Notes under the pieces: generated by a model
Database searches by the model: none
Told to the model about the DNA's origin: nothing
Seen by the model: the letters and a program-made list of their open reading frames with translations, nothing else
Source: a virus
IMG/VR virus record: IMGVR_UViG_3300024057_000015
Location: 1-21,221 of that record
Strand: one strand, 5' to 3'
DNA length: 21,221 bases
In this document: positions 1 to 20,519 of the stretch, one piece after another
Layout: each line of letters opens with the position of its first letter
Position numbering within the stretch: position 1 is the stretch's first letter
Program-made: the position numbers and the translations under genes

Positions 1-3000
1 GCCAAGGGCGTGCCCCAGGCACTGTTCAGCGCGCACTACCTAGCCCTGACCTGGATCACCCGGAGGGCCGCCGCGATACTGCACCAGCGCACGGGCGAGG
101 CGTGGGAGCCGGCCGAGGTCCAGGCCGCCGTCTGGGCCTGGTCGCGCACGCTACGCTTCACGGTGAAGCGGGACGACCAGAAAAACCGGCTATCGAAGTT
201 CGAGATGGTCCGCTATGGGATGTTCGGCCCGGGGGACGTGAAACCGGACGACTTCGCAGAGCTGATGATGTCGACGGTTCAGCGGGGCGTGGAGCTGTTC
301 GAGCGGGGCAAACTGCCCAAGGCCAAGGAGGTTCTCGGTGGACTCGCAAAAAGAACAAGAAGTGCGCGACGCGCTGTCGGCGATTTTGGATTCACAGCAC
401 TCGAAGGCGGACCAGATGAAGGGTTTTCTGCTGGACACGCTGCAGACCTCCGACGAGCTGCCCGGCGGCTCGACGAGCGATTCCCCGTCGAGGAGCGACA
501 GCAGCAGGCCACCAAGCGCGCCCGACTCCGAGAGCCCGGAGCCGACTACTCCCCCGCCGACCAGGAGCAGCGAGCCAGCGACGCCCTTGCCGAGATCAGA
601 GACAGTGCCGCCGAGCAGCAGGGCGAGCTCGCCGCCCGCCCCGCCCGAGAGCTCAAGCCCGGAGATCGCGTCACCTACCGAGGAACCGAGGTTGCCGGGT
701 TCGCAGGAACCGAAGGGACCGTCAGCAGCGTAGGGCCCGGCAAACTCGGCGTGGGCGTCGACTGGGACAAGCCGCTCAACAAGAGCGGCGCCAACCACGG
801 GACACACCCGGCCACCGAGCTGGCCGAGCCTGGCCAGCAGGCCGAGCTCGACTTCGGCGACACCCCCGACGCCGCCGAGCCCGCCGGCCCCGAGCAGCGC
901 GGAGGCGTCCGGGTCCTCGCCCGAGACCTCCCTGCCAGGATCGAGCGCGACCGAGGGGCCGAGCTAGTCGGGTCGACCGTCATCACGCCCCGCGACCTCG
1001 CGACGCTTGCCTCGATCCTCCGCGACCGTCGTATCGAGACAATACGCCACTTCTGGATCGATAAGAACGGGAAGATCGTCTCGACCGAGGCCGGCTCGAG
1101 CGGGATGCCCGGCTACTCCTCGATTGCGATCGGGTTGGCCCCGGAGTCCGCAGAGGATTTCATCCCGTACTACCACCGGCTCGCCCGGAGGGCCCTACGC
1201 CTACTGAAGTCTCGGGGTGTGCGTGAGCTCTACCTCATGCACAACCACCCATCAGCCACCCCGACGTCGAGCATGGACGATCGCAAGGCGAACCGCCGGG
1301 CAACGGTCGAGTTCCTGGCCCATCAGATCAAGATCGTCGCCAACGAGGGCGCCCCGAAGGGCCAGAAGCGGCGGGTTCAGCGCCTGATGAAGGCGATCGA
1401 GGACGACCGCTTCTGGCCCTACAGGCCGCACGAGCACGACCCCGACAACTTCATCATGACCGAGCCGGGGGCCCTGCAAGATCCTGACGCGCCGCCGGGA
1501 GTGCGCGAGCAGCTCGACGACCTGACGAAACTGTACGACGCCGGCGTCCTCGTCGAGCCCCGCGGTCACGTCGTGATCGACCACGACCGCTACACCTGGA
1601 TCGGGCCCACCGGAGAGTTGAAGTCCGACCTGCCGACGCACGACTTCCACAACCTGGACGACAAGCCCGACCCCCTGCGGCGACCCGAGGACATCGCCAT
1701 CCCTCACCCGAAGCTGCGGGCGCACCGGGGTGCAGGCCCACAGGACGTCGCGGAGCTCGGCAGTCAGATCGTCACCGGGGAGCGGGACGTCGTGCTGATC
1801 TACGCCGACGCCGCCGGCCGCGTCGTGGGACTCGAGGAGGTCCCTCGAGGGCTGCTCGATCAGACGATGGAGCTCGCCAACTGGGTCCGAGGTCGAGTGC
1901 CGGAGTACGGCGCGGTGGAAGTCTTCCTCTACACCCGCGACAAGGAGACGGTCGAGTCCATGCGGCGGGCGATGCAGGCGGGAATCGTCCGCGATGCACT
2001 CATCGACACGTCTTCGGTCTGGAGCGCGCAGGAGAAGGGCATCTTCGCGCTGTACGAGCTCGGCAAGGCCAAGGGGAAGCCCAAGGCGTCGCGGCGTCTG
2101 TGGGAGCGGGCCACGCGCTACGGCACCGACCCCCGCCCGGTCGGCGAGATCCTCCGCGAGCGCCAGCGGGCCTACAACGGGGCGGGGGTGCGGTTCCCGC
2201 GCTTCTCGACGAAGTTCATCGGGTCCGGGGAGAGCACGCTCAACTACGGCTGGGGGCTGTACTTCACGTCGCTCAAGGCGATCGGGCAGTGGTATCGCGA
2301 CGCCGACATGCAGCGGAAGGGCAGGGTCGCCACATTCTTCCGAGGCGCCGAGTTCCAGGCCGGACTGATCGACAGCACGGGCCACGCGCAGGCTGTCGTC
2401 GACCTGGTCGCCGGGATCGACCTCGACGAGATCCGGGCGAAGCTGCCCGACGACATGAAGCAAGCGGAGAATGTGGTCCTCGTACATGCTGCAAGGCACT
2501 TGATGTTCGCCTGGGGTCGCGAGGTGACTATCCGGGGGGTCACGGTCGAGGGCTTGCGGAGACGGGTACTGGCAGTTGCAGATAACGGGATCATGAACGC
2601 CGAGATGGCTCGCGACGGCTTTTCCGGCAAGCCAGAGTTGCACTCGCCATCTCGTCTCGAGGCCGCCGACTTCCGCGTTTTCGAGGCCAAACTGAACCGC
2701 GAGGTCTGGCGGCAGATGGTGCCTGAGCTCACCCTACAGGGCCGCGAGGGCCAGGTGGCCGAGGTCGAGATCCCCGGGCCGGAGGAGATGCTGCACTGGA
2801 ACGGTGCGATGGGGGACATCGACTCCGAGGGGGAGTTCATCAAGCCCGACATCGACAACCCCAACCACCACGCATACACGCGACTCGCGGCGGCTGGGTG
2901 GGACCCCGAGTATGGGAAGCAACCGCGGAAGCGGAGGCCGACGCCACTGGCCGACAACACCGGCCACACGATCTACCGGATCCTCGTACAGCAGGCGGCG

Positions 3001-6000
3001 TGGTTTATCGAGAGCCCGGATAGGCAGCCGGGGGCTCCCGAGAACATAGCGAGCGATAGCTACGCGAAGTTCCTGCGGGACCATGACCTTAAAGACCCCG
3101 AGGAGGCCGCGTCCCGCTACCTCGACTCCATCGGGATCCGCGGCGTGGCCTACGTCGGCCGGACGAGCGGCGAGCCGGGCTACGTCGTGTTCAACGACGA
3201 CCAGGTGTCGCTCCCCGTCGCGTTCTACCAGGACGACCGCGGGCGGATCGACATCGACCGGGTGTCGAAGCAAATCACCATCACACTGACCGACGCGGCC
3301 GACGCCTCGACGGTCTTCCACGAGATGGCCCACTTCTACCTCGAGGCCATGGCCGATCTGGTCGAACGGCCCGAAGCGTCGCCCGAGCTCCAGGCCGACT
3401 GGGCCGAGGTGCTGCGCTTCCTGAAGGTCAAGACTCGCGAGCAGATCGACACCCCGCAGCACGAGAAGTTCGCCAGATCCTTCGAGGAGTACCTGCGTCG
3501 AGCCCAGGCGCCCAGCGAGGGCCTGCGCTCCGTCTTCGGGCGGATCCGGGCCCTGATGCTCGCCGTCTACGGCCAGGCCGAGAAGCTCGCCAGCCTTTCC
3601 CCGCGGATCAAGGACGTGTTCGACCGGCTGCTCGCCACCGAGCAGGAGATTGCCGCAGCGCGTTCCGCGATGCGTCTCGAGCCGATCGAGGCACTGACCC
3701 GTACGATGTCCTCCGACGAGCTGGAGCGCTACCGCGAGGCCGCGGAGAAGGCGGCTGCGGAGGCCGAGGACGACCTGCGTGTCGCCGCCCTGGCCGACGC
3801 CGAGGAGTTCCGCGAGCATGTGGCGGGCCGGCGCGAGCTGATGGCCGCCGAGATCCGCACCGCCTGGGCGGAATCCCGCCTGATGACCGCGCTCCACTAC
3901 CTGCAGCGTGGCCGGATGATCGAGGGCGAGACCCCGCGCGAGCTCCTGAACGACGACGGGAAGTCGCTGAAGCTCGACAAGCAGGCCCTGATCGACGAGT
4001 TCGGCGGCGGGATCCTCAAGCAGCTCGCCCGAGGGAACCAGCACCCCTACACCAACCAGGCTGACCGGGCGACCGATCCGGGCACCCTCGCTGAGTTGCT
4101 GGGGTACGACTCCGCGGCCGAGCTCATCGCCGAGCTGACCGGCGCGCCCAACTACCAGAAGGCCTTCGACGAGGAGATCGAGCGCCGGGTCGAGGCCCGC
4201 TACGGCGACATCATGCGCGACCCCGGGGCCCTGACCGAGCGGGCGATGGACGCCGTGGTGGCGCCGGCGGCCTTCGAGCAGCTCCTGATCGAGCTCGACC
4301 ACGCCCGCCGGCAGCTCGCGCCTGGCGAGGCCGCAAACGCCTCGATGGTCGACCGCGCCTCGCTCAAGGCCTACGCCGGCCGGGTGATCGCTGGCAAGAC
4401 AATCATGGAACTCCAGCCTTACGCCTACGCCCAGGCGGCACAGCGGCACGGCACGAAGGCCCAGAGGTCGACCAACCCGGAGACCATCCACCGGGAGCGG
4501 ATGCTCCAGCTCGTCAACCTGGCGCTCTACCGCGAGGCCCGGGACGCCCGCCTCGAGGCCGACCGAGCCCTGCGCTACGCCCGCCGGATGATGGGCAAGT
4601 CGACCCAGCAGATGCTCGGCAAGGCCGACAGTGCTACGGCCGACCCGACCCAGGGCATCGCCGGAGGGTCCTACCAGGCGACGGCCAACCAGCTCCTCGA
4701 GCACTTCGAACTACGGCCGGAGTCGAAGCGATCGACCGAGCGCCGGCAGAGGCTCCGCGACTGGGTGGCCGAGCAGATCGCCGAGGGCGAGGACGTCGTC
4801 GTCACGCCCCGCCTAGTCGAGCTCACCGAGCGGGCGAAGAAGCATTTCCGGGAGCTGCGGGTCGACGAGTTCCGCGACCTGCGGAACGCGCTGCAGAACA
4901 TCGAGGGGCTGGCCCGGCTCAAGACGAAACTACTCGACGGCGAGGACACCCGAGACTTCCGCCGTGGGGTCGGCGAGCTCATCGACTCCGGCGACGCCAA
5001 CCTGGCCGCGGCGAAGCCGATGTGGGATCCCGAGGTGGACCGGCAGAGGACTATAGGAGAAACGGTCAGCGAGTGGGTCGACACCTGGGACTCGAAACTG
5101 CTCCGCATGGAGGAGATCATCGACCGGCTGGACGGCCGGGACGTCCGCGGGCCGTGGACCCGGCTCATCTGGCAGCCGATCGTCGAGGCGCAGAACGCCG
5201 AGAACGAGATGACCGCCACTATCGCCCAGGCCCTGGTCCAGCAGTTCGAGAAGCTGGGCAAGAAGCGCAAGCAAGATCTCCTGACCGAGGAGGTACCGAT
5301 CCGCCGGCTGGGCAGGTCGATCCTCAAGCAGACCGCTCTGGTGGTTGCGCTCAACACGGGCAACGCCGGCAACTATGACCGGCTGCTCCGCGGGGGCATG
5401 GGTCTCGGCGAGCAGTGGGGCCCGGAGGTGATCGAGGAGATTCTCTCGACCCTGACCATCGAGGACTGGACGTTCGTCCAGGGGCTCTGGGACACGCTCG
5501 AGTCGCTCTGGCCGCAGATCGCGGCGCTCGAGAAGCGGGTCACGGGCGTGGCCCCGCCGAAGGTGGAGCGGGTGCCGTTCCGCCGCTCGTTCGCCAACGA
5601 GACGACAGGCGAGAGCACTACCGAGACGTTCGAGGGTGGGTACTACCCGATCGTCTACTCCGAGCGGACGCGCCAGGCGCAGCAGCAGGCCCGCGAGGGC
5701 CAGTCGATGCTGTCGCTGTTCGGTGGGAAGTACGTTCGGGCGATGACGCCCCACGGGCACGTCCAGACCCGCGTCGAGTCCTTCGGCGGCGAGCTGTCGA
5801 CGTCCCTCGAGACGGTGACCCAGCACGTCTCGAAGGTGATCCACGATCTGACGCACCGCGAAGCGACGATGCAGATATTCCGCATCCTGCACGACCGCGA
5901 GTTCATGCAGTGGGCGTGGAACCGGATGGGTAAGACCCGCTGGAAAGCGCTCGAGGACTGGCTCCGCCGGATCATCCAGGTCCAGAACACCAACGACCCG

Positions 6001-7176
6001 GACGTCGAGTCCTTCATCCGCAAGGGCCGGCTCAACGTGGCAGCCGCGGCCATGGGGTTCAAGGCGACGGTGAGTCTGCAGAACATCGTCAACCTGTCCA
6101 ACGTGGTGGAGAAGGTCCCGGTCAGGTGGTTCGGGCCGGCGTTGCGCGAAACGATGCGCCACCCGATCGCTACCCGGGAATTTATCCACGGCAAGTCGGG
6201 CGAGATGAAGTTCCGCTTCCAGACCCTCGACCGCGACATCCGAGAGGCTCTGCAGCGGCAGGGGTCGATCCGGGGCATGACCGGCCGGCAGAAGTTCATC
6301 AAAGAAGCGCAGAAGCTGGGATTCGGGGTGATCGCAGCGACAGACATGATCTCGGCCTATCCGGCCTGGATCGCTGCGTACCGGCACGCCATGGCGGCCG
6401 AGGGCGAGCACGGTCTGGGCCTCACCGAGAAGCAGGCGATCGCTCACGCTGACCGGACGGTCCGGACCACCCTGTCCGCCGGCGGGGAGAAGGACATCGC
6501 GAACATCCAGGCCAGCTCGAGCGAGCTCCTGAAGGCCCTGACGATGTTCTATGGCTGGTTCTCGACGGCCTATATGAGGTTCCGGGCCCTGGGATTCGAC
6601 ATCCGCACGGCCCGCCACAAGGAGGAGGGGGCTGTCGCCCGGGGTCTCCCGTGGTATCTGGGCCGCATGCTGGCCTTCTGGATCGTGCCGGCCACCGTCG
6701 CCGAGCTCCTGGCCAACCGCGGCCCGGACGCCGAGGACGACGAGGGGTGGGTCGAGTGGTTCATCACCAAAACGCTCCAGTATCCCATGCTGACCATCCC
6801 GGTCCTCCGCGACGCTTCGAGCCTGGTCGAGGGCCATATCCGCGGCGAGCGCCGGTCGGCTCGCTTTGGCGCCCTCTCGACGGTGCTCGAGGAAACGGTG
6901 CGGGCCGGTGCGGTCCTGGCCGAGGAGGCCGTCGACCTGTTCGGGCCCGAGGACTTCGACGAGGACAAGGCCGCCGTCGCCGCGGCCCGCGCGATGGGCT
7001 ATACCATGGGCCTGCCGTCGAGCCAGTTCGAGATCACCGGCGGATACCTGTGGGACGTGTTCATCAACGGCCAGGAGCCTGCAGACGTGCTCGAGTTCAT
7101 ACGTCACCTGCTGTACCGCCGCTCCCCCGAGGAGCGGAAAGAATCCGGGGACGAGCCCGTGGCGAGGCGCAACTGA
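1..7176 (+). CDS. Giant polyvalent phage protein (JAB, ADP-ribosyltransferase-like, zincin domains), 5' end outside window
   Basis: The frame is open from the left edge; the first in-window start codon is GTG at 10, so the true start is probably upstream. Residues are numbered from that GTG, 2388 in all. Seen in order: a KOW-like beta segment (about 215-255); a RadC-like JAB domain with HNHPS at 411-415 and D423/D424; a second JAB-like segment lacking the HxHP motif (about 580-690); a phage-type ADP-ribosyltransferase-like segment with YGWGLYF at 746-752 and its end near 1042-1067; a zinc metallopeptidase HEMAH at 1104-1108; a long helical region with coiled coil (about 1190-1300); a GGYYP segment near 1876; and one hydrophobic stretch at 2217-2236 near the C-terminus. 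This architecture fits the large polyvalent proteins that phages inject with their DNA, where effector domains modify or protect against host factors. That role is inferred from the family. The downstream fibre adaptor start overlaps its stop. The frame between about 338 and 475 is suspect (see findings). Confidence 0.85.
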   Translation, partial: AKGVPQALFSAHYLALTWITRRAAAILHQRTGEAWEPAEVQAAVWAWSRTLRFTVKRDDQKNRLSKFEMVRYGMFGPGDVKPDDFAELMMSTVQRGVELFERGKLPKAKEVLGGLAKRTRSARRAVGDFGFTALEGGPDEGFSAGHAADLRRAARRLDERFPVEERQQQATKRARLREPGADYSPADQEQRASDALAEIRDSAAEQQGELAARPARELKPGDRVTYRGTEVAGFAGTEGTVSSVGPGKLGVGVDWDKPLNKSGANHGTHPATELAEPGQQAELDFGDTPDAAEPAGPEQRGGVRVLARDLPARIERDRGAELVGSTVITPRDLATLASILRDRRIETIRHFWIDKNGKIVSTEAGSSGMPGYSSIAIGLAPESAEDFIPYYHRLARRALRLLKSRGVRELYLMHNHPSATPTSSMDDRKANRRATVEFLAHQIKIVANEGAPKGQKRRVQRLMKAIEDDRFWPYRPHEHDPDNFIMTEPGALQDPDAPPGVREQLDDLTKLYDAGVLVEPRGHVVIDHDRYTWIGPTGELKSDLPTHDFHNLDDKPDPLRRPEDIAIPHPKLRAHRGAGPQDVAELGSQIVTGERDVVLIYADAAGRVVGLEEVPRGLLDQTMELANWVRGRVPEYGAVEVFLYTRDKETVESMRRAMQAGIVRDALIDTSSVWSAQEKGIFALYELGKAKGKPKASRRLWERATRYGTDPRPVGEILRERQRAYNGAGVRFPRFSTKFIGSGESTLNYGWGLYFTSLKAIGQWYRDADMQRKGRVATFFRGAEFQAGLIDSTGHAQAVVDLVAGIDLDEIRAKLPDDMKQAENVVLVHAARHLMFAWGREVTIRGVTVEGLRRRVLAVADNGIMNAEMARDGFSGKPELHSPSRLEAADFRVFEAKLNREVWRQMVPELTLQGREGQVAEVEIPGPEEMLHWNGAMGDIDSEGEFIKPDIDNPNHHAYTRLAAAGWDPEYGKQPRKRRPTPLADNTGHTIYRILVQQAAWFIESPDRQPGAPENIASDSYAKFLRDHDLKDPEEAASRYLDSIGIRGVAYVGRTSGEPGYVVFNDDQVSLPVAFYQDDRGRIDIDRVSKQITITLTDAADASTVFHEMAHFYLEAMADLVERPEASPELQADWAEVLRFLKVKTREQIDTPQHEKFARSFEEYLRRAQAPSEGLRSVFGRIRALMLAVYGQAEKLASLSPRIKDVFDRLLATEQEIAAARSAMRLEPIEALTRTMSSDELERYREAAEKAAAEAEDDLRVAALADAEEFREHVAGRRELMAAEIRTAWAESRLMTALHYLQRGRMIEGETPRELLNDDGKSLKLDKQALIDEFGGGILKQLARGNQHPYTNQADRATDPGTLAELLGYDSAAELIAELTGAPNYQKAFDEEIERRVEARYGDIMRDPGALTERAMDAVVAPAAFEQLLIELDHARRQLAPGEAANASMVDRASLKAYAGRVIAGKTIMELQPYAYAQAAQRHGTKAQRSTNPETIHRERMLQLVNLALYREARDARLEADRALRYARRMMGKSTQQMLGKADSATADPTQGIAGGSYQATANQLLEHFELRPESKRSTERRQRLRDWVAEQIAEGEDVVVTPRLVELTERAKKHFRELRVDEFRDLRNALQNIEGLARLKTKLLDGEDTRDFRRGVGELIDSGDANLAAAKPMWDPEVDRQRTIGETVSEWVDTWDSKLLRMEEIIDRLDGRDVRGPWTRLIWQPIVEAQNAENEMTATIAQALVQQFEKLGKKRKQDLLTEEVPIRRLGRSILKQTALVVALNTGNAGNYDRLLRGGMGLGEQWGPEVIEEILSTLTIEDWTFVQGLWDTLESLWPQIAALEKRVTGVAPPKVERVPFRRSFANETTGESTTETFEGGYYPIVYSERTRQAQQQAREGQSMLSLFGGKYVRAMTPHGHVQTRVESFGGELSTSLETVTQHVSKVIHDLTHREATMQIFRILHDREFMQWAWNRMGKTRWKALEDWLRRIIQVQNTNDPDVESFIRKGRLNVAAAAMGFKATVSLQNIVNLSNVVEKVPVRWFGPALRETMRHPIATREFIHGKSGEMKFRFQTLDRDIREALQRQGSIRGMTGRQKFIKEAQKLGFGVIAATDMISAYPAWIAAYRHAMAAEGEHGLGLTEKQAIAHADRTVRTTLSAGGEKDIANIQASSSELLKALTMFYGWFSTAYMRFRALGFDIRTARHKEEGAVARGLPWYLGRMLAFWIVPATVAELLANRGPDAEDDEGWVEWFITKTLQYPMLTIPVLRDASSLVEGHIRGERRSARFGALSTVLEETVRAGAVLAEEAVDLFGPEDFDEDKAAVAAARAMGYTMGLPSSQFEITGGYLWDVFINGQEPADVLEFIRHLLYRRSPEERKESGDEPVARRN
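338..733 (+). CDS. Candidate overlapping ORF in a second frame, or the true N-terminus of the giant protein
   Basis: GTG at 338 is preceded by AAGGAGG at 325-331, an excellent ribosome binding site. The product would be 131 residues. Its first 45 residues have balanced composition and look helical, and their codons end mostly in G or C. Over the same bases the giant ORF frame has many codons ending in A or T and an Arg/Gly/Ala-rich product, which is typical of a shadow frame. After about position 475 the situation reverses: this ORF becomes a Ser/Pro/Thr-rich string, as expected when it shadows the other frame. The reading could be a nested gene, the start of the giant protein followed by a frameshift, or the result of two indels in the assembly. 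No family is recognised. Confidence 0.4.
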   Translation: MDSQKEQEVRDALSAILDSQHSKADQMKGFLLDTLQTSDELPGGSTSDSPSRSDSSRPPSAPDSESPEPTTPPPTRSSEPATPLPRSETVPPSSRASSPPAPPESSSPEIASPTEEPRLPGSQEPKGPSAA

Positions 7177-12862: not shown

Positions 12863-13080
12863 GGCGGCTCGGCTGGGCGCTCGCCCTGGCCTTGCTTGTG
12901 GTGTTCGCCGTATTGCCGGAGCTCTGGTTGCTTGCGGCGGGCGACACCAAGGGCCTGTCCGACCGACAGCGCGTGGTGCTGTACAGGGCCGGCGTCGACC
13001 AGGCCGTGAAGCTCATCGAGGAGCAGCACTACGACTCCGCGCTCAGCGTCCTACGGAAGGTCCGCGAGGACACCCAGTGA
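12859..13080 (+). CDS. Single-anchor small membrane protein, lysis-associated
   Basis: This 73-residue protein starts at ATG 12859 in an ATGA overlap. Two Arg precede a long hydrophobic segment (about residues 4-27), followed by a helical soluble tail with 'SDRQRVVLYRAGVDQ' and a charged C-terminus. The layout suggests an N-terminal anchor with the tail outside the inner membrane. It could be an antiholin, an accessory lysis protein or a signal-anchor holin. No family is recognised. Confidence 0.5.
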   Translation: MRRLGWALALALLVVFAVLPELWLLAAGDTKGLSDRQRVVLYRAGVDQAVKLIEEQHYDSALSVLRKVREDTQ

Positions 13081-13322
13081 ACGAGGAGCTACTGAAGAAG
13101 CTGCTGCTGGTGGTGATCGCAGCGCTGCTCGCCGTCTGTGGCGCGATCGGCAGCCTGGTCGCCTGGCACACCAAGAACGTCCACAGCGAGCTCGTCGGCC
13201 TGCGCGCGGACGTGAAGCAGGCCGAGATGCGCTTCGTGGCGCTGAGCAGGGTCGTCGACGTCGAAGCCGGCATCAACCCCTACGCCGAAATCGTCCCGGC
13301 GGAAACAACGGAGGTCCCATGA
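13077..13322 (+). CDS. Inner-membrane spanin-like protein
   Basis: The start is GTG 13077, coupled as GTGA; the product has 81 residues. A membrane helix at about residues 9-30 (LLVVIAALLAVCGAIG) is followed by a soluble helical part (about 34-60) and a short tail rich in Pro, Glu and Thr. One N-terminal anchor plus a coiled-coil-like periplasmic domain is the layout of i-spanins, which connect to an outer-membrane lipoprotein to fuse the membranes at lysis. The next gene contains a lipobox, which supports a pair. Spanins vary greatly in sequence, so the assignment rests on layout and position. Confidence 0.5.
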   Translation: MNEELLKKLLLVVIAALLAVCGAIGSLVAWHTKNVHSELVGLRADVKQAEMRFVALSRVVDVEAGINPYAEIVPAETTEVP

Positions 13323-13972
13323 GTAACATCGACTTGACGGCGCTGCGAGACGATCTCGAGCGCGAGGGAGCGGATATCCTCGAGGAGCTCGGCGCCTCGA
13401 AGGACCAGGCCCGGGCGGCACTGACCGCCATGCTGGCCGACGCCGAGGCGGCGATCGCCGCCGGTGACCTCGAGCACGCCGACGCCTTACGGGCGGAGAT
13501 CCCGGTCATCCTCGAGCGCGAGCTCGTCGAGATCCGGGGGATGAGCCGCCATCGCGCCCTTGGGATCGGGAGCCGGGTCCTGGGCGCCCTGGTCAGCCTA
13601 CTCACGCGAGCTCGAGCTGCCGGCCCGGTGGTCCTGTTGCTCCTGCTGACCGCGGGCTGCTGGGCGCACCGGGGGACGGTCAGGTCCGACGCCATCGACG
13701 GCATGGTGGCTAACCTGTGCGACGTGGTGGCGACCTGCGTCGAGGAGGGTCTGCGCCCTGCCACGGTCGCCGACTGCGGCGAGGACGGCCTGGTGGGCCG
13801 GTTACAGGTCGACAAGCGGATCACTGGCGAGGAGTTGGCTGCCGGAGTCCTGTCGATCTGCGGGCCCGTAGAGGCGTGTGTCGCCGCCTGGCCGGACCTA
13901 CCGGCCCATCGGGGGCGGTCGTACGTGAGGTGGTGCGACTTGCTGGGGTCGACGGCGGCATCAAGCCTTTAG
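13319..13972 (+). CDS. Lysis-cassette protein with internal hydrophobic segment and lipobox
   Basis: This 217-residue product starts at ATG 13319 in an ATGA overlap. The first ~70 residues are an acidic soluble helical region. A basic stretch then leads into GPVVLLLLLTAGC, where LTAGC is a good lipobox with Cys114. The mature part after Cys114 holds several cysteines. A lipoprotein signal 100 residues inside a protein is odd. An internal start at ATG 13541 (residue 75) would give an Arg-rich n-region followed by the lipobox, which would be an outer-membrane spanin-like lipoprotein. The full-length form could instead be a membrane protein with one internal helix. The choice cannot be made from sequence. 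Confidence 0.55.
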   Translation: MSNIDLTALRDDLEREGADILEELGASKDQARAALTAMLADAEAAIAAGDLEHADALRAEIPVILERELVEIRGMSRHRALGIGSRVLGALVSLLTRARAAGPVVLLLLLTAGCWAHRGTVRSDAIDGMVANLCDVVATCVEEGLRPATVADCGEDGLVGRLQVDKRITGEELAAGVLSICGPVEACVAAWPDLPAHRGRSYVRWCDLLGSTAASSL

Positions 13973-14012
13973 GGGCCGACCGAGAGAGAGGGTCGAAACG
14001 AGTGTCGACGGC

Positions 14013-14192
14013 GTGAACTTTGCGGTCGCAATGCGTACCGACGGACAGGTGATCAATACTACGGTGAGTTCCGACGGCGTGTCCCATCTTGCTTTCCATG
14101 GTCCGCTGCCTTACGTCCGTGGCAGCGCAACGGCGGTCGTTAGCGGTACCTGTGCGTTCCAGTTCGTGGTGGAGGAAGCTGTCCCGGGCTAA
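14013..14192 (+). CDS. Possible small ORF, start uncertain
   Basis: GTG 14013 or ATG 14031 in the same frame opens a short ORF of 59 or 53 residues ending at TAA 14190-14192. The product looks beta-rich, with the motifs 'VINTTVSSDGVSHLAFHGP' and 'GTCAFQFVVEE', and could be the end of a fibre-type domain. The frame is open upstream to about 13929 without an ATG or GTG start, and no good ribosome binding site is visible. It may be a remnant cut off from a longer gene. Otherwise the stretch 13973-14216 holds nothing clear; it is the meeting point of the rightward lysis genes and the leftward operon. Confidence 0.3.
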   Translation: MNFAVAMRTDGQVINTTVSSDGVSHLAFHGPLPYVRGSATAVVSGTCAFQFVVEEAVPG

Positions 14193-14216
14193 CCTCCGGG
14201 GGCGGGAATAGTCGCT

Positions 14217-14411
14217 TCACGACCCCCTCTTGAGATCGCGGCAAACGCGGCCGCAGCGGATTCTCTTGACGCTGACACCGAGCACACTCCGTAGTTTGCG
14301 CTTGCCGGCTCGGCCGGCGGCCAAGGCGTCCTTCTCGTCGAGGTCGTGGACGGTGGTCTTCCAGTCGCGCCCGTTCTTGAACGTGACCTTGTAACTGGCT
14401 TTGAAGATCAT
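14217..14411 (-). CDS. Small basic protein, unknown function
   Basis: This 64-residue leftward protein starts at ATG 14411 with GGAGGAG about nine bases upstream. The longer open frame to 14645 overlaps the next gene and is rejected. The N-terminal half reads as a beta hairpin (KASYKVTFKNGRDWKTTVHD) and the C-terminal half is strongly basic with two Cys (IRCGRVCRD). It is the last gene of the three-gene leftward operon. The basic tail could bind nucleic acid, but no family is recognised. Confidence 0.6.
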   Translation of the reverse strand: MIFKASYKVTFKNGRDWKTTVHDLDEKDALAAGRAGKRKLRSVLGVSVKRIRCGRVCRDLKRGS

Positions 14412-14428
14412 CGGTTCAACTCCTCCAT

Positions 14429-14638
14429 CTACCTTCCGGCGAATTGGTCGAACGTAAACGAAGTTCCAAGCGCGGCGTTCGCAGCGTCTAGGAAAGCCTG
14501 AGATTCCGGGGCCGTCACTTCTCCCCACTCGTCTACCTGTTCCCCGGATGTGTCCAGGGGTCGCGAAAACAGTGCGTCGTGCCAGTGTGCGACGGCGCAT
14601 CCGAAATCGAGTAGGTTTGGTGTAGTGGTTTTCCCCAT
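14429..14638 (-). CDS. Small acidic protein, unknown function
   Basis: This 69-residue leftward protein starts at ATG 14638 in an ATGA overlap with the preceding gene's stop, so it is translationally coupled. It begins MGKTTTPNLLDFG, has a Trp/His pair (AHWHDAL), and is acidic and helical in its C-terminal half. No family is recognised. It is the middle gene of an operon probably controlled by the divergent promoter region to its right. Confidence 0.6.
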   Translation of the reverse strand: MGKTTTPNLLDFGCAVAHWHDALFSRPLDTSGEQVDEWGEVTAPESQAFLDAANAALGTSFTFDQFAGR

Positions 14639-14904
14639 CACGCACCGCCTTTGCTCGGCGTCCAGCCAGCCAAGATGTTCAGTTTCCACGGGCGGGTCAT
14701 CCCGTGGCCGACGCTGCCGTCCAGAACGGGCATCGAGCAATTCCGACAGTGGACGGCGTCTTCGATCCTGTCGAGCTCGGCTTGGTCGTAACCGTAGGGC
14801 TGACGGTCGCCGGAAAGTTCCAGCCGCTCGCCGTCGTAGGGCGATTCGAGATAGCCCAAAAACTCGTTCGTCTGTTGGTCGATGACTTCGATCGTGTAGC
14901 TCAT
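14638..14904 (-). CDS. First gene of leftward operon, unknown function
   Basis: This 88-residue leftward protein starts at ATG 14904 with GGAGG six bases upstream and a sigma70-type promoter just behind it. The N-terminus has a strand-turn-strand pattern (SYTIEVIDQQTNEFLGYLE). A CRNC pair and further charged and aromatic residues follow. The pair alone is not enough to call a zinc site. Expressed opposite to the HTH and recombination operon, it is a candidate early or regulatory product. No family is recognised. Confidence 0.65.
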   Translation of the reverse strand: MSYTIEVIDQQTNEFLGYLESPYDGERLELSGDRQPYGYDQAELDRIEDAVHCRNCSMPVLDGSVGHGMTRPWKLNILAGWTPSKGGA

Positions 14905-14938
14905 TGTGTTCCTCCGTGCGTCTCTGCTTGTGCCCCAG

Positions 14939-14967
14939 ATCGTAGCGCACCCCGTTGGCGCTGTCAA
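14939..14967 (-). promoter_or_regulatory. Leftward sigma70-type promoter
   Basis: On the minus strand a perfect TTGACA (-35, plus-strand 14962-14967) is followed after 17 bases by TACGAT (-10, plus-strand 14939-14944). Transcription would begin near 14932, giving a leader of roughly 28 bases to ATG 14904. The -35 box lies within the left palindrome, so a bound repressor would block it. Confidence 0.75.
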
Positions 14968-14968
14968 C
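14954..14968. promoter_or_regulatory. Operator-like palindrome, left copy
   Basis: GTTGGCGCTGTCAAC fits an imperfect palindrome GTTGRC-N3-GYCAAC and covers the -35 box of the leftward promoter. It matches the reverse complement of the right copy at 13 of 15 positions, with about 34 bases between centres. The likely binder is the small HTH protein encoded next to it; this is inference. Confidence 0.6.
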
Positions 14969-14987
14969 ACCTCAATATCAAGCAGTG

Positions 14988-15002
14988 GTTGACACTGCCA
15001 AC
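14988..15002. promoter_or_regulatory. Operator-like palindrome, right copy
   Basis: GTTGACACTGCCAAC fits GTTGRC-N3-GYCAAC and covers the -35 box of the rightward promoter. Together with the left copy it forms a symmetrical arrangement in which one dimeric repressor could control both directions. Confidence 0.6.
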
Positions 15003-15016
15003 AGGCGCGTTATACT
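14989..15016 (+). promoter_or_regulatory. Rightward sigma70-type promoter
   Basis: A perfect TTGACA at 14989-14994 is followed after 16 bases by TATACT at 15011-15016. Transcription would begin near 15023, and an AAAGGAGGTG ribosome binding site lies at 15025-15034 ahead of ATG 15042, so the leader is very short. It drives the HTH, Sak4-like and exonuclease operon. The -35 box lies within the right palindrome. Confidence 0.8.
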
Positions 15017-15041
15017 CCAGGGTGAAAGGAGGTGTTCCCTA

Positions 15042-15260
15042 ATGGCAACATACGCAACCCGAGCCGAGGTCAAGGCTGTGGCCGCAAGGCTCAAAGAGGC
15101 TGGAAGCTCCCAGCGGGAGTTGGCGCGCGTGTCCGGGATGAACCATTCGACGATCTCGAGGTGGTTCTCCGGTCAACGGTGCGACCGTGTCCGGCGTTGG
15201 AAACTGCAAGTCCTCGATAGCGCACTGCGCCTGATCGAGAACCAGAAGGAGGCATCATGA
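15042..15260 (+). CDS. Small helix-turn-helix transcription regulator
   Basis: This 72-residue protein starts at ATG 15042, behind AAAGGAGGTG. The open frame extends upstream to 14955, but that part overlaps the promoter -10 box, so the later ATG is chosen. Residues about 22-45 form a canonical helix-turn-helix: QRELARVSGMNHSTISRWFS, with a Gly in the turn and Ser-Thr-Ile-Ser-Arg-Trp in the recognition helix. The rest is basic. Size and layout match Cro/C1-like phage regulators with only a DNA-binding domain. The paired palindromes just upstream are its probable targets, making it an autoregulator and a switch for the leftward operon; this link is inferred. Its stop overlaps the next start as ATGA. 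Confidence 0.8.
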   Translation: MATYATRAEVKAVAARLKEAGSSQRELARVSGMNHSTISRWFSGQRCDRVRRWKLQVLDSALRLIENQKEAS

Positions 15261-15430
15261 CCGACGCCGATTTCCGCCAGCTCGTCAAAGAGATGCGCGA
15301 GGCTCAGGACAGGTACTTCAAGTTCAGCCGCAGCGGTAGCCAGCGGCAGTTAGGCGACGCGCTTCGCGAGTCTCTCGCCCTGGAAAGGCGCGTCGACAAG
15401 GAGCTCTCACAGGAGGGTCTGTTCTCTTAA
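15257..15430 (+). CDS. Small conserved-type phage protein, unknown function
   Basis: This 57-residue ORF starts at ATG 15257 in an ATGA overlap with the HTH gene. The protein is helical and charged, with 'DFRQLVKEMREAQDRYFK' near the start and 'LALERRVDKEL' near the end. The pattern resembles a small protein often found beside phage recombination genes, judged from memory of phage genomes. Function is unknown. Tight coupling and good codon use support it as real. Confidence 0.7.
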   Translation: MTDADFRQLVKEMREAQDRYFKFSRSGSQRQLGDALRESLALERRVDKELSQEGLFS

Positions 15431-15450
15431 CCCATTCCCGAGGAGAAACC

Positions 15451-16611
15451 ATGGCTCTAAAGATCATCAGCCCCACAGACCCCATCACGGTCGACCAACT
15501 GGTCGTCGCGATCTACGCTCAGCCCGGCTCCGGCCGGACTACGATCGGCTACACCGCCGATAGGGCCCTCGTGTTCGACTTCGACCAGGGCTCGCACCGA
15601 TCCGCGTTCCGCACCCTGGGCGACACCGTGCGCCCCACGCGGTGGGCCGACGTCCAACTCACCGCCGACGAGCTCGGGCCGTACGACACGGTAGTGCTTG
15701 ACACCATCGGGCGCGCTCTCGAGATGCTCGCGGTCCACCTGATCGAGAAGGACCCGAAACTGGCCCGGTCAACAGGAGACCTCGCGCTCCAGGGCTACGG
15801 CGCGCTCAAGTCCGTGTTCGCCCGCTGGGTCGGTCAGGTCAAGTCTTCTGGCTGCGACCTCGTATTCTGCTGCCACATGGACGAGCAGCAGAAGGGCGAC
15901 CGTACCATCGAGCGGCTTGACTGTATCGGCGGTACACGGCAGGAGGTGTACAAGGTGTCCGACCTGATGGGCAAACTCACTGTCGGTGTTGCCGGCAAGC
16001 GACTCCTCGACTTCCGCCCCGGCGAAACGTCGTTCGGTAAGGACCCCGTGGGTCTGGGCCTGCTCGACGTTCCTGTGCTCGACACCCTCGACGACAAGCG
16101 TTGGCTCGGAGGCCTGATTCGCGGTGCTAAGGCCAAACTGAACGAGATGACTGAGGACCAGCGCAAACTCCAGGCCGAGCGCGACGACTTCGCCGACATG
16201 GTCACGGCGACCGAGGAGCCGGCCGAGCTGACCGATCTAATGAAGGCCGCGAACGGCGACAGCGTCATGCGGGCGATCGTCGCAAGGCGAGCCAAGGAGC
16301 TCAACTTGGTCGTCGACCAGGAGCAGAAGTGCTTCGTGAAGCCTGAGCCCGCGGTCATCGAGGGGGCCGAGAAGCACACGCCTGCGGTGGCAGCAAAGAC
16401 ATCCACCGCCGCAGAGGTGTGCGAGAGTCCCCGGGCGGGGAATCTGCCGGAACCGCCGGCCGAGCCGGCAGACACGTCCCTGCCGGATCCGAAGGCCAAG
16501 CCCAAGCCGAAGCGGAACCCCAGGAAGGAGGCCCAGCAACAGCGCCTAGAGAACGTGGCTGCGTCCGGGAAGGCCCCCGCGTCCGGCGACCGAGAGGAGA
16601 TGGAGTTTTGA
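15451..16611 (+). CDS. Sak4-like phage recombination ATPase (AAA_24 type)
   Basis: This 386-residue protein starts at ATG 15451 behind GAGGAG. The N-terminal ~230 residues form a RecA/AAA-type NTPase: a P-loop AQPGSGRTT (about 23-31), 'VFDFDQGSHRSA', a Walker B-like strand DTVVLDTIG (about 72-80), 'QGYGALKSVFARW', and a sensor-like 'VFCCHMDEQ'. This order matches phage Sak4-type single-strand annealing ATPases. The Walker A lysine is Arg29. The C-terminal ~120 residues are low-complexity, rich in Pro, Ala, Lys and Glu, and end in an acidic tail; such tails often contact single-strand binding proteins. Its start codon neighbour downstream is an exonuclease, a common recombinase partnership. 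The family call is by motif and order. Confidence 0.75.
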   Translation: MALKIISPTDPITVDQLVVAIYAQPGSGRTTIGYTADRALVFDFDQGSHRSAFRTLGDTVRPTRWADVQLTADELGPYDTVVLDTIGRALEMLAVHLIEKDPKLARSTGDLALQGYGALKSVFARWVGQVKSSGCDLVFCCHMDEQQKGDRTIERLDCIGGTRQEVYKVSDLMGKLTVGVAGKRLLDFRPGETSFGKDPVGLGLLDVPVLDTLDDKRWLGGLIRGAKAKLNEMTEDQRKLQAERDDFADMVTATEEPAELTDLMKAANGDSVMRAIVARRAKELNLVVDQEQKCFVKPEPAVIEGAEKHTPAVAAKTSTAAEVCESPRAGNLPEPPAEPADTSLPDPKAKPKPKRNPRKEAQQQRLENVAASGKAPASGDREEMEF

Positions 16612-17390
16612 AGGCCCGACTGTCCATCACAACGATCGACTGGTGGCTGTCCTGGGAGGAAGCCACCCTCTATGAACTCCAGGGCAAACTCACGCACCGC
16701 CAGCCGCAGACCGAGGCGATGCTCCGCGGGATCGCGTTTCACGAGGCCCTCGCGCACCTTTCAAGCCTGTGCGAGGGCGCGGACTACACCACGACCGACT
16801 CAATAGATTCCCGTGGGTTCACCTTCGACTTCAACGGCGTCGAGATCCAGATCGAGTCGGTGTCGCCGTACCAGACCGAGCTCAAGATCGAGCGTAGGAT
16901 CGACAGCTCGCTTCTCGACACCGAGATCGGCAGCGAGATCACCCTGGTCGGCAAGGTCGACCGCATCGATGGAAGCACCGTCGAGGACCACAAGACAACC
17001 AGTCACTTCGACGCCGAGCGTCTGCTCGCCTCCTGGCAGTGGCGGTTCTACCTGTGGCTGACCGGAGCGGACGTCTTCCGCTGGCACGTCTACGAGATGA
17101 AGCCTATGGAGACTCCGCGCAAGGCGTTCGCGGCGTGGCTCAAGCGGTTCGACGACTGGCGGGACAACCCGCCGGCCGAGGAGCTCGCGGCTGCCCTACG
17201 GCGCTACAAGGTGACCAACTACCACCAGCTGGAGGCGGCCCGCTACCCCAACCTCGAGGCCGAATGCCTCGGAGCGATGGATCAGTTTCTACGGGCCGTC
17301 AATCTGCTCTGTGACGCCGGCAACCTGGACCCCGGGCGGGTCGGGATCCCGGCGGGCTGGACCCCGAGCGGGGTGGAGGTGCTGGCATAA
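16608..17390 (+). CDS. PD-(D/E)XK exonuclease (RecB/Cas4-like)
   Basis: The start is TTG 16608, in a TTGA overlap with the recombinase stop and with GAGGAG just upstream; a longer upstream frame has no better start. The 260-residue product shows the RecB-like nuclease motifs: H45 in 'GIAFHEAL', D118 in 'GKVDRID', E126/D127-H-K129 in 'VEDHKTT', and Q144 with Y148 in 'WQWRFYLW' as the QxxxY motif. It should resect DNA ends to give single strands for the adjacent Sak4-like ATPase to anneal; that pairing is established for phage recombination modules and inferred here. The gene is followed by a terminator. Confidence 0.8.
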   Translation: MKARLSITTIDWWLSWEEATLYELQGKLTHRQPQTEAMLRGIAFHEALAHLSSLCEGADYTTTDSIDSRGFTFDFNGVEIQIESVSPYQTELKIERRIDSSLLDTEIGSEITLVGKVDRIDGSTVEDHKTTSHFDAERLLASWQWRFYLWLTGADVFRWHVYEMKPMETPRKAFAAWLKRFDDWRDNPPAEELAAALRRYKVTNYHQLEAARYPNLEAECLGAMDQFLRAVNLLCDAGNLDPGRVGIPAGWTPSGVEVLA

Positions 17391-19757: not shown

Positions 19758-20519
19758 ATGGCAAAGAGTAAACAGTCAGCACCGGAAGCGATCGAGATCA
19801 AACCTATCAAGATGGGCCAGGTTCAATTCTGGATCGTGGGCGAGAGTCCGCTCGTTCTGAACCGTCTACCCGAGAAGGCTCGCCAGGAGCTGCTCCTCCC
19901 GAAACCCCGGGGCGTGAGTAGGAGCACGCTCAAGCACGACCCCATCGCGGAGTTCCGCTCGTCCATGTGCCTGCGTCCCAGGGACCACAAGGGGACGCGA
20001 ATCTGCGTGCCTTCCACCGCCCTGAAAAACTCAATCCGCACCGCAGCGCTTGATCTCGACGGCGCGTCCAAAGCCCAGGTTGGGCGCCTGTGTTACATAC
20101 CGGGGGAGAAGGTCGATGTTTACGGAACCCCGGAGGTCTACATGGCTGTCGTACGACAGTCCGGCATCGGTCGCACACCAGACGTCAGGACTCGGGCGAT
20201 CATCAAGGAGTGGGCGTGCGGGTTCTCCGTTGACTATGTCAAGCCGATGTTGAGCGACACGGTCCTCGGCAATCTGGTAAACGCGGCCGGCGTCTTCTGC
20301 GGCATCGGTGACGGTAGACCAGAGAAGGGCGCATTGTCTTTCGGCCGGTTCTCTCTCGTCCCCGAGACTGACGCGAAGCTCCGCAGGATCGTCAAGATGG
20401 GCGCCGCCGAGCAGGATGAGGCTATCGCAGACCCAGCCTTTTACGACCAGGACAGCGAGGATCTCTACTCGTGGTTCCACGGCGCGGCTGGTGAGCGCGA
20501 GCTCGAGGTGGCTAAATGA
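19758..20519 (+). CDS. Conserved-type phage protein, unknown function
   Basis: This 253-residue protein starts at ATG 19758 behind GGAGGG. It shows 'WIVGESPLVLNRLPEKA' near the start, 'RICVPSTALKNSIRTAA' in the middle and 'NAAGVFCGIGDGRPEKG' near residue 190. This order (a target strand, a helix with Lys-Asn, a late Gly-rich GIGDGRPEKG) recalls a common phage family seen next to recombination or replication genes; the function is not established. A resemblance to RAMP-type folds is possible but unproven. It is coupled to the next gene by an ATGA overlap, so the two may act together. Confidence 0.65.
   Translation: MAKSKQSAPEAIEIKPIKMGQVQFWIVGESPLVLNRLPEKARQELLLPKPRGVSRSTLKHDPIAEFRSSMCLRPRDHKGTRICVPSTALKNSIRTAALDLDGASKAQVGRLCYIPGEKVDVYGTPEVYMAVVRQSGIGRTPDVRTRAIIKEWACGFSVDYVKPMLSDTVLGNLVNAAGVFCGIGDGRPEKGALSFGRFSLVPETDAKLRRIVKMGAAEQDEAIADPAFYDQDSEDLYSWFHGAAGERELEVAK

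Follow-up and report, generated by a model that had tools for sequence, protein, structure and literature searches.

We asked how a phage control region of some 140 bp would regulate the early genes on its two sides, given that it holds two divergent promoters, each with a palindrome across its -35 box, and adjoins the gene of a small helix-turn-helix (HTH) protein, and whether it is better read as a two-way decision circuit or as a feedback device. The region lies in the window, by which we mean the entire virus record IMGVR_UViG_3300024057_000015 (21,221 bp). A longer viral contig, IMGVR_UViG_3300024520_000178 (40,969 bp; hereafter G001), was 99.96% identical to the window over the 10,216 bases compared and extended its sequence leftward. 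Homologous portal, large terminase (TerL) and head genes were present, with a portal 37-40% identical to those of epsilon15, BPP-1, Carin1 and others, and PHROG families were matched for the large terminase, portal, major head and tail proteins. As judged from these predicted virion genes, the phage is of the epsilon15-like short-tailed type. The last 7 kb holds early-type genes, encoding the HTH protein, a 57-aa ORF, a Sak4-like protein, a PD-(D/E)XK nuclease and a small terminase subunit.

Several features elsewhere in these sequences were also recorded. A tRNA-Met gene lies between the large terminase and portal genes (L008, 1514-1589), and the head gene cluster also encodes a 228-aa protein (L008, 4077-4763) that belongs to phrog_33995 and gave a weak ParB-like match. 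One continuous ORF, at least 2391 residues long, enters the window from its left edge (1-7176) and sits where related phages carry the gene of a very large internal virion protein. The longer contig departs from the window within a C5-methyltransferase-like ORF (L010 1593-1970, compared with the window from ~21080), and past the departure point the L010 stretch reads the same protein words on the opposite strand; this departure is probably an assembly fold-back.

Table 1. Positions in the window of the predicted genes, promoters and putative operators of the divergent early region.
Feature	Position	Strand	Remarks
Third leftward ORF, 64 aa	14217..14411	-	No family match
Second leftward ORF, 69 aa	14429..14638	-	No family match
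First leftward ORF, 88 aa	14638..14904	-	No family match
Leftward sigma70-like promoter	14939..14967	-	-35 TTGACA 14967-14962; 17-nt spacer; -10 TACGAT 14944-14939; 10/12
Putative operator 1, GTTGGCGCTGTCAAC	14954..14968	.	Over leftward -35; 0 mismatches to GTTGRC-N3-GYCAAC
Putative operator 2, GTTGACACTGCCAAC	14988..15002	.	Over rightward -35; 0 mismatches; inverted near-copy of operator 1
Rightward sigma70-like promoter	14989..15016	+	-35 TTGACA 14989-14994; 16-nt spacer; -10 TATACT 15011-15016; 11/12
XRE-type HTH protein, 72 aa, putative Cro-like autorepressor	15042..15260	+	Pfam HTH_3
57-aa ORF	15257..15430	+	Start overlaps HTH stop; phrog_15937, unknown function
Sak4-like single-strand annealing ATPase	15451..16611	+	AAA_24, phrog_124
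PD-(D/E)XK nuclease	16608..17390	+	PF12705, E 7.7e-8; phrog_1218 exonuclease, E 0.00028

An earlier sequence-only reading of this locus had described two sigma70-like promoters facing away from each other, and our scan recovered both at 14939-15016 with scores of 11/12 and 10/12 (Table 1). They recurred at the same sites in G001, where a scan of 40,000 of the 40,969 bases returned six promoter-like sites, with these two alone reaching 10/12. Three promoter-like sites fell within positions 13000-17000, compared to a shuffle mean of 0.4, and a third site, on the minus strand and scoring 9/12, overlaps the divergent pair. The leftward start codon, at 14904, and the rightward one, at 15042, lie ~140 bp apart and flank the control region. 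The HTH gene starts 19-28 nt beyond the rightward -10 box, and AAAGGAGGTG precedes its start codon. On the rightward arm, the PD-(D/E)XK nuclease is probably a recombination exonuclease, as its family matches suggest, while the three small leftward ORFs matched nothing in any family library scanned.

Each -35 TTGACA had further been placed inside a 15-bp palindrome of the form GTTGRC-N3-GYCAAC, which both sites fit without mismatch, though as palindromes they are imperfect, with 5/6 arm pairs matching and the mismatched position identical in both. Read on its own strand, the rightward site is GTTGACACTGCCAAC and the leftward site GTTGACAGCGCCAAC, both of the form GTTGACA-NY-GCCAAC, with the same polarity and the -35 box in the first half. 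Both sites have mixed halves, GTTGGC/GTCAAC, around the centres GCT and ACT. The layout is that of divergent promoters with overlapping operators, the operator role being putative. The two centres are 34 bp apart, a distance that does not correspond to an integral number of helical turns, and cooperative contact between dimers is therefore not implied. When the search for further sites of this form was extended to the whole of G001, the two putative operators were the only exact matches in 41 kb, where 0.011 would be expected by composition alone (0.006 in the window). Two further sites in G001 had one mismatch to the form; one of the two, at window positions 20229-20243, falls inside an ORF (19758-20519).

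The improbability of this arrangement was assessed by holding the four promoter boxes fixed, shuffling the remaining bases and scoring palindromes with at most one mismatch and a spacing of 0-8. Of 20,000 shuffles, 377 placed both -35 boxes inside palindromes; the spacing was equal in 85 of them, and only 54 had the mirror arrangement. The exact geometry was reached in 3 of 200,000, a post hoc count because the geometry was chosen after it had been seen. The mirrored arrangement is thus unlikely by chance, but not astronomically so. A weaker signal came from the general inverted-repeat score of the intergenic region, which was matched in 5 of 500 dinucleotide shuffles. This last result leaves some room for the palindromes being incidental, that is, for one promoter having been duplicated in inverted orientation, with a partial complement of TTGAC downstream of each -35 box that has no protein partner. 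The two promoter regions are alike beyond the palindrome, at 28 of 63 positions in an ungapped comparison and mostly near the -35 box, as an inverted duplication would give, and if both promoters arose from one such event the two sites count as one event. Among viral contigs, GTTGACA-NY-GYCAAC followed by TATAMT occurred in 42 stretches, one of them the present locus and almost all before unrelated genes, which indicates that chance complements to a -35 box are not unusual in so large a collection and that the form of promoter plus palindrome is not by itself specific to this HTH protein. Set against this are the small number of shuffles with mirrored palindromes over both fixed -35 boxes and the HTH gene directly adjoining the sites, and we consider the incidental explanation unlikely. 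The paired pattern was found in seven stretches of viral contigs, one of which was G001; in the other six, no HTH relative was seen by eye within 1.5 kb. A GTTGRCAACGCCAAC-type palindrome pair was observed before a small-terminase-like gene of an AT-rich viral contig (L012 11704-11759, L017 1220-1275).

The first rightward gene had been taken to encode a 72-residue HTH protein, in agreement with the ORF at 15042-15260, whose product matched Pfam HTH_3 over residues 15-46 at 33.4 bits compared to a cut-off of 23. It was the sole HTH_3 match in G001. Single-sequence fold prediction gave four helices with a mean pLDDT of 90.3 (72-81 for the other models), and the nearest PDB folds were XRE-type dimers, such as restriction-modification C proteins and HipB, with probabilities of ~1 and none at E <= 0.001. 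The protein also gave weak matches, below the cut-off, to Phage_CII (E 0.0071) and to phage DNA-metabolism HTH families (phrog_664, E 9e-9), as would occur if it were a CII-like activator, or an accessory protein of recombination or replication acting elsewhere. Such a role is very improbable on the other evidence. HTH_3 was the sole curated match well above its cut-off, that of HTH_23 being exceeded by 1 bit only, and the promoters are already near consensus, such that no activator would be needed. CII half-sites are direct repeats, unlike the inverted half-sites observed here.

Relatives of the HTH protein were sought in several collections. The viral contig scan returned the near-identical G001 only, as did those with Sak4, the exonuclease and the 88-aa protein as queries, and phage records gave only partial HTH matches at <60% identity. 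In the genomes of two classes there were 0 matches among 369 and 0 among 385 at E <= 1e-4, which are weak negatives because these scans had no positive control. A scan with the 253-aa protein led to three contigs (L020-L022) that share that gene but not the control region, one of which (L020) also had a weak match to the 155-aa protein. Mycobacteriophage HTH matches were considered as relatives and rejected, as both neighborhoods inspected lay within single-strand operons.

Sites of this form are also common outside phages, which raises the possibility that a regulator of the host, rather than of the phage, uses them. A scan of bacterial genomes for pairs of such palindromes separated by 5-35 bp yielded at least 118 stretches (L023-L140), showing that GTTGRC-N3-GYCAAC is not the signature of one protein family, and 87 of the 118 listed had a TetR-family gene within 1.5 kb (E < 1e-10). 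That gene starts at the pair in 61 of the listed stretches, and an HMM built from these added 27 within 1.5 kb, L095 weakly; an SDR-type dehydrogenase gene also starts at the pair in 39 loci among the matches listed. Both names, TetR and SDR, come from our reading of the sequences and not from a family search. Paired GTTGACRNYGTCAAC palindromes were widespread across bacterial phyla and look like a broad class of TetR operators; a literature search for six literal 15-mers found nothing relevant. Palindromes of this form with a spacing of 36 bp were seen at L016 4400-4702, L100 5818 and L117 7053, with nine tandem copies of GTTGGCAGTGCCAAC in L016, and are perhaps plasmid or phage iterons.

The present sites share with the paired GTTGACRNYGTCAAC elements beside TetR and SDR genes the 15-bp form, TTGAC in the arms and an RNY centre, which was found in 171 of the 178 sites of TetR-linked pairs among the matches listed and which GCT and ACT both fit. 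A host TetR-family regulator using these operators would leave the phage promoters tuned to the state of the host. The details of the sites make this improbable: 173 of those 178 sites were symmetric and only 5 mixed among the matches listed, whereas both window sites are mixed rather than built of symmetric GTTGAC halves, and mixed halves at both sites were seen at only one of the 87 TetR-linked loci listed (L055). The usual spacing of centres was 27-28 bp (53 pairs among the matches listed), compared to 34 bp here. The pair in the window is flanked by the XRE protein and the 88-aa ORF without a family instead of an adjoining TetR gene, and no TetR gene was seen anywhere in the window. The rarity of mixed halves and the 34-bp spacing render a host TetR protein less likely than the phage's own HTH protein. 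Two other classes of site were compared and set aside. The UmuDAb box, with TTGA/TCAA arms flanking a GTnAC core (PMC11332147), did not match the sites read as SOS boxes, nor did BirA sites, which have oppositely oriented GTTGAC/GTCAAC arms with N14-15 between them (PMC545781).

The reading we prefer, and regard as reasonably likely given the sites and the protein family, is that a Cro-like HTH autorepressor binds both mirrored palindromes and switches both early arms off following an initial burst. The promoters, the palindromes, the order of the genes and the predicted fold family of the protein can be read from the sequence. Upon entry of the phage, host sigma70 RNA polymerase would fire both promoters, the leftward one reading the three small ORFs and the rightward one the HTH gene followed by those for Sak4 and the exonuclease. 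With accumulation of the HTH protein, its dimers would occupy the two palindromes, masking both -35 boxes and keeping polymerase off, such that both arms, the HTH gene included, would be turned down in a Cro-type negative feedback or pulse. We infer the binding of the sites, the repression that would follow from it and the timing. Control by one dimer type is favored by the mirrored sites and the XRE gene adjoining them, by the finding of no further HTH_3 match in the contig, and by the comparable arrangement in some relatives of the phage. No HTH relative with a control region of its own, in which site and protein might be seen to co-vary, was found in the scans, which counts against the proposal, as does the finding of no significant inverted pair in four of five related phages.

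That one dimer type would govern both directions and its own gene, as the sequence-only reading had proposed, remains the most economical account, but the idea that the locus forms a minimal early decision circuit found no support. A decision between lysis and lysogeny requires an opponent, and none was found: neither a tyrosine integrase nor a serine recombinase was identified in the 41 kb, nor an HTH_3 repressor that could oppose the small protein. Searches with PF00589 and PF00239 gave no match in the incomplete G001, with controls positive in 14/14 and 10/14 genomes, respectively. An opposing repressor of the CI type was sought in the same 41-kb contig as a second match to HTH_3, one among the repressor families, and the absence of an integrase or repressor applies to the sequence present in this unclosed contig. 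The region is better explained by feedback shut-off or by pulse control than by a choice between two outcomes. Should the protein bind as proposed, the module would be very compact, with one small protein setting both early arms and itself, and would offer a natural case of a Cro-like protein without an opposing CI, as well as a simple part for feedback promoters. Damping of early genes by a Cro-like protein is a normal strategy, and the biological surprise is modest.

Early genes were inspected in seven phages whose portal or terminase genes are epsilon15-like; for BPP-1, in addition, the structural half was examined. Divergent early arms meet at a short control region in the lambdoid Cro/CI systems, and the same holds for the immunity regions of epsilon15, where repressor sites are annotated close to the repressor gene and a small ORF (gp39) is divergent, and of BUCT554, in which a 196-aa HTH repressor is divergent from a 76-aa ORF. 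Both differ from the present phage in having a long HTH repressor and an integrase, neither of which was found in its 41 kb. The long repressor occupies the position at which the small HTH protein heads the recombination arm here, and the small ORFs of epsilon15 and BUCT554 have no HTH match in Pfam, unlike the 72-aa protein. A divergent HTH region was sought in ctQRb9 and not found.

No integrase is annotated in Carin1, ctEw122, SR18 or MZH0603, and in each a small ORF heads one arm of a divergent pair, though the small HTH protein does not head a Sak4-containing arm as it does in the present phage. The ORF of MZH0603 matched HTH_3 above the cut-off, and that of SR18 matched YdaS_toxin (E 2.2e-11, above the cut-off) and P22_Cro (E 4e-5). 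Podoviridae sp. ctEw122 (MW202640.1; TerL 44.8% identical) likewise has a 72-aa annotated Cro at its divergent junction, but this protein resembles P22 Cro and YdaS (P22_Cro E 2e-6, below the Pfam cut-off), and in the intergenic region a single 10/12 promoter was found and no inverted pair reached significance. Cobetia phage Carin1, with epsilon15-like virion genes and a portal of 39.6% identity, has a small HTH-looking ORF (87 aa) divergent from exonuclease and RecT genes with an inverted operator-like pair between them. This 22-nt pair was reached by 0 of 500 shuffles and was the sole significant one among the intergenic regions of five relatives (ctEw122 37/500, SR18 42/500, BUCT554 91/500, MZH0603 377/500). 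It differs from the present pair in its sequence, GTGGTGAC...GCAACACC, and in the 47 nt between arms, and the 87-aa ORF, which matches nothing in Pfam, leads the other arm. It is conceivable, though rather doubtful, that a lineage of epsilon15-like phages retained just the Cro half of a Cro/CI switch present in its ancestors, in which case the one-protein pulse generator, with mirrored operators fused to the -35 boxes, would be the smallest form of such a region. The layout is shared in part with the related phages and the operator sequence not at all, and an autoregulated Cro-like divergent early region is a known kind of system, here in an unusually compact form.
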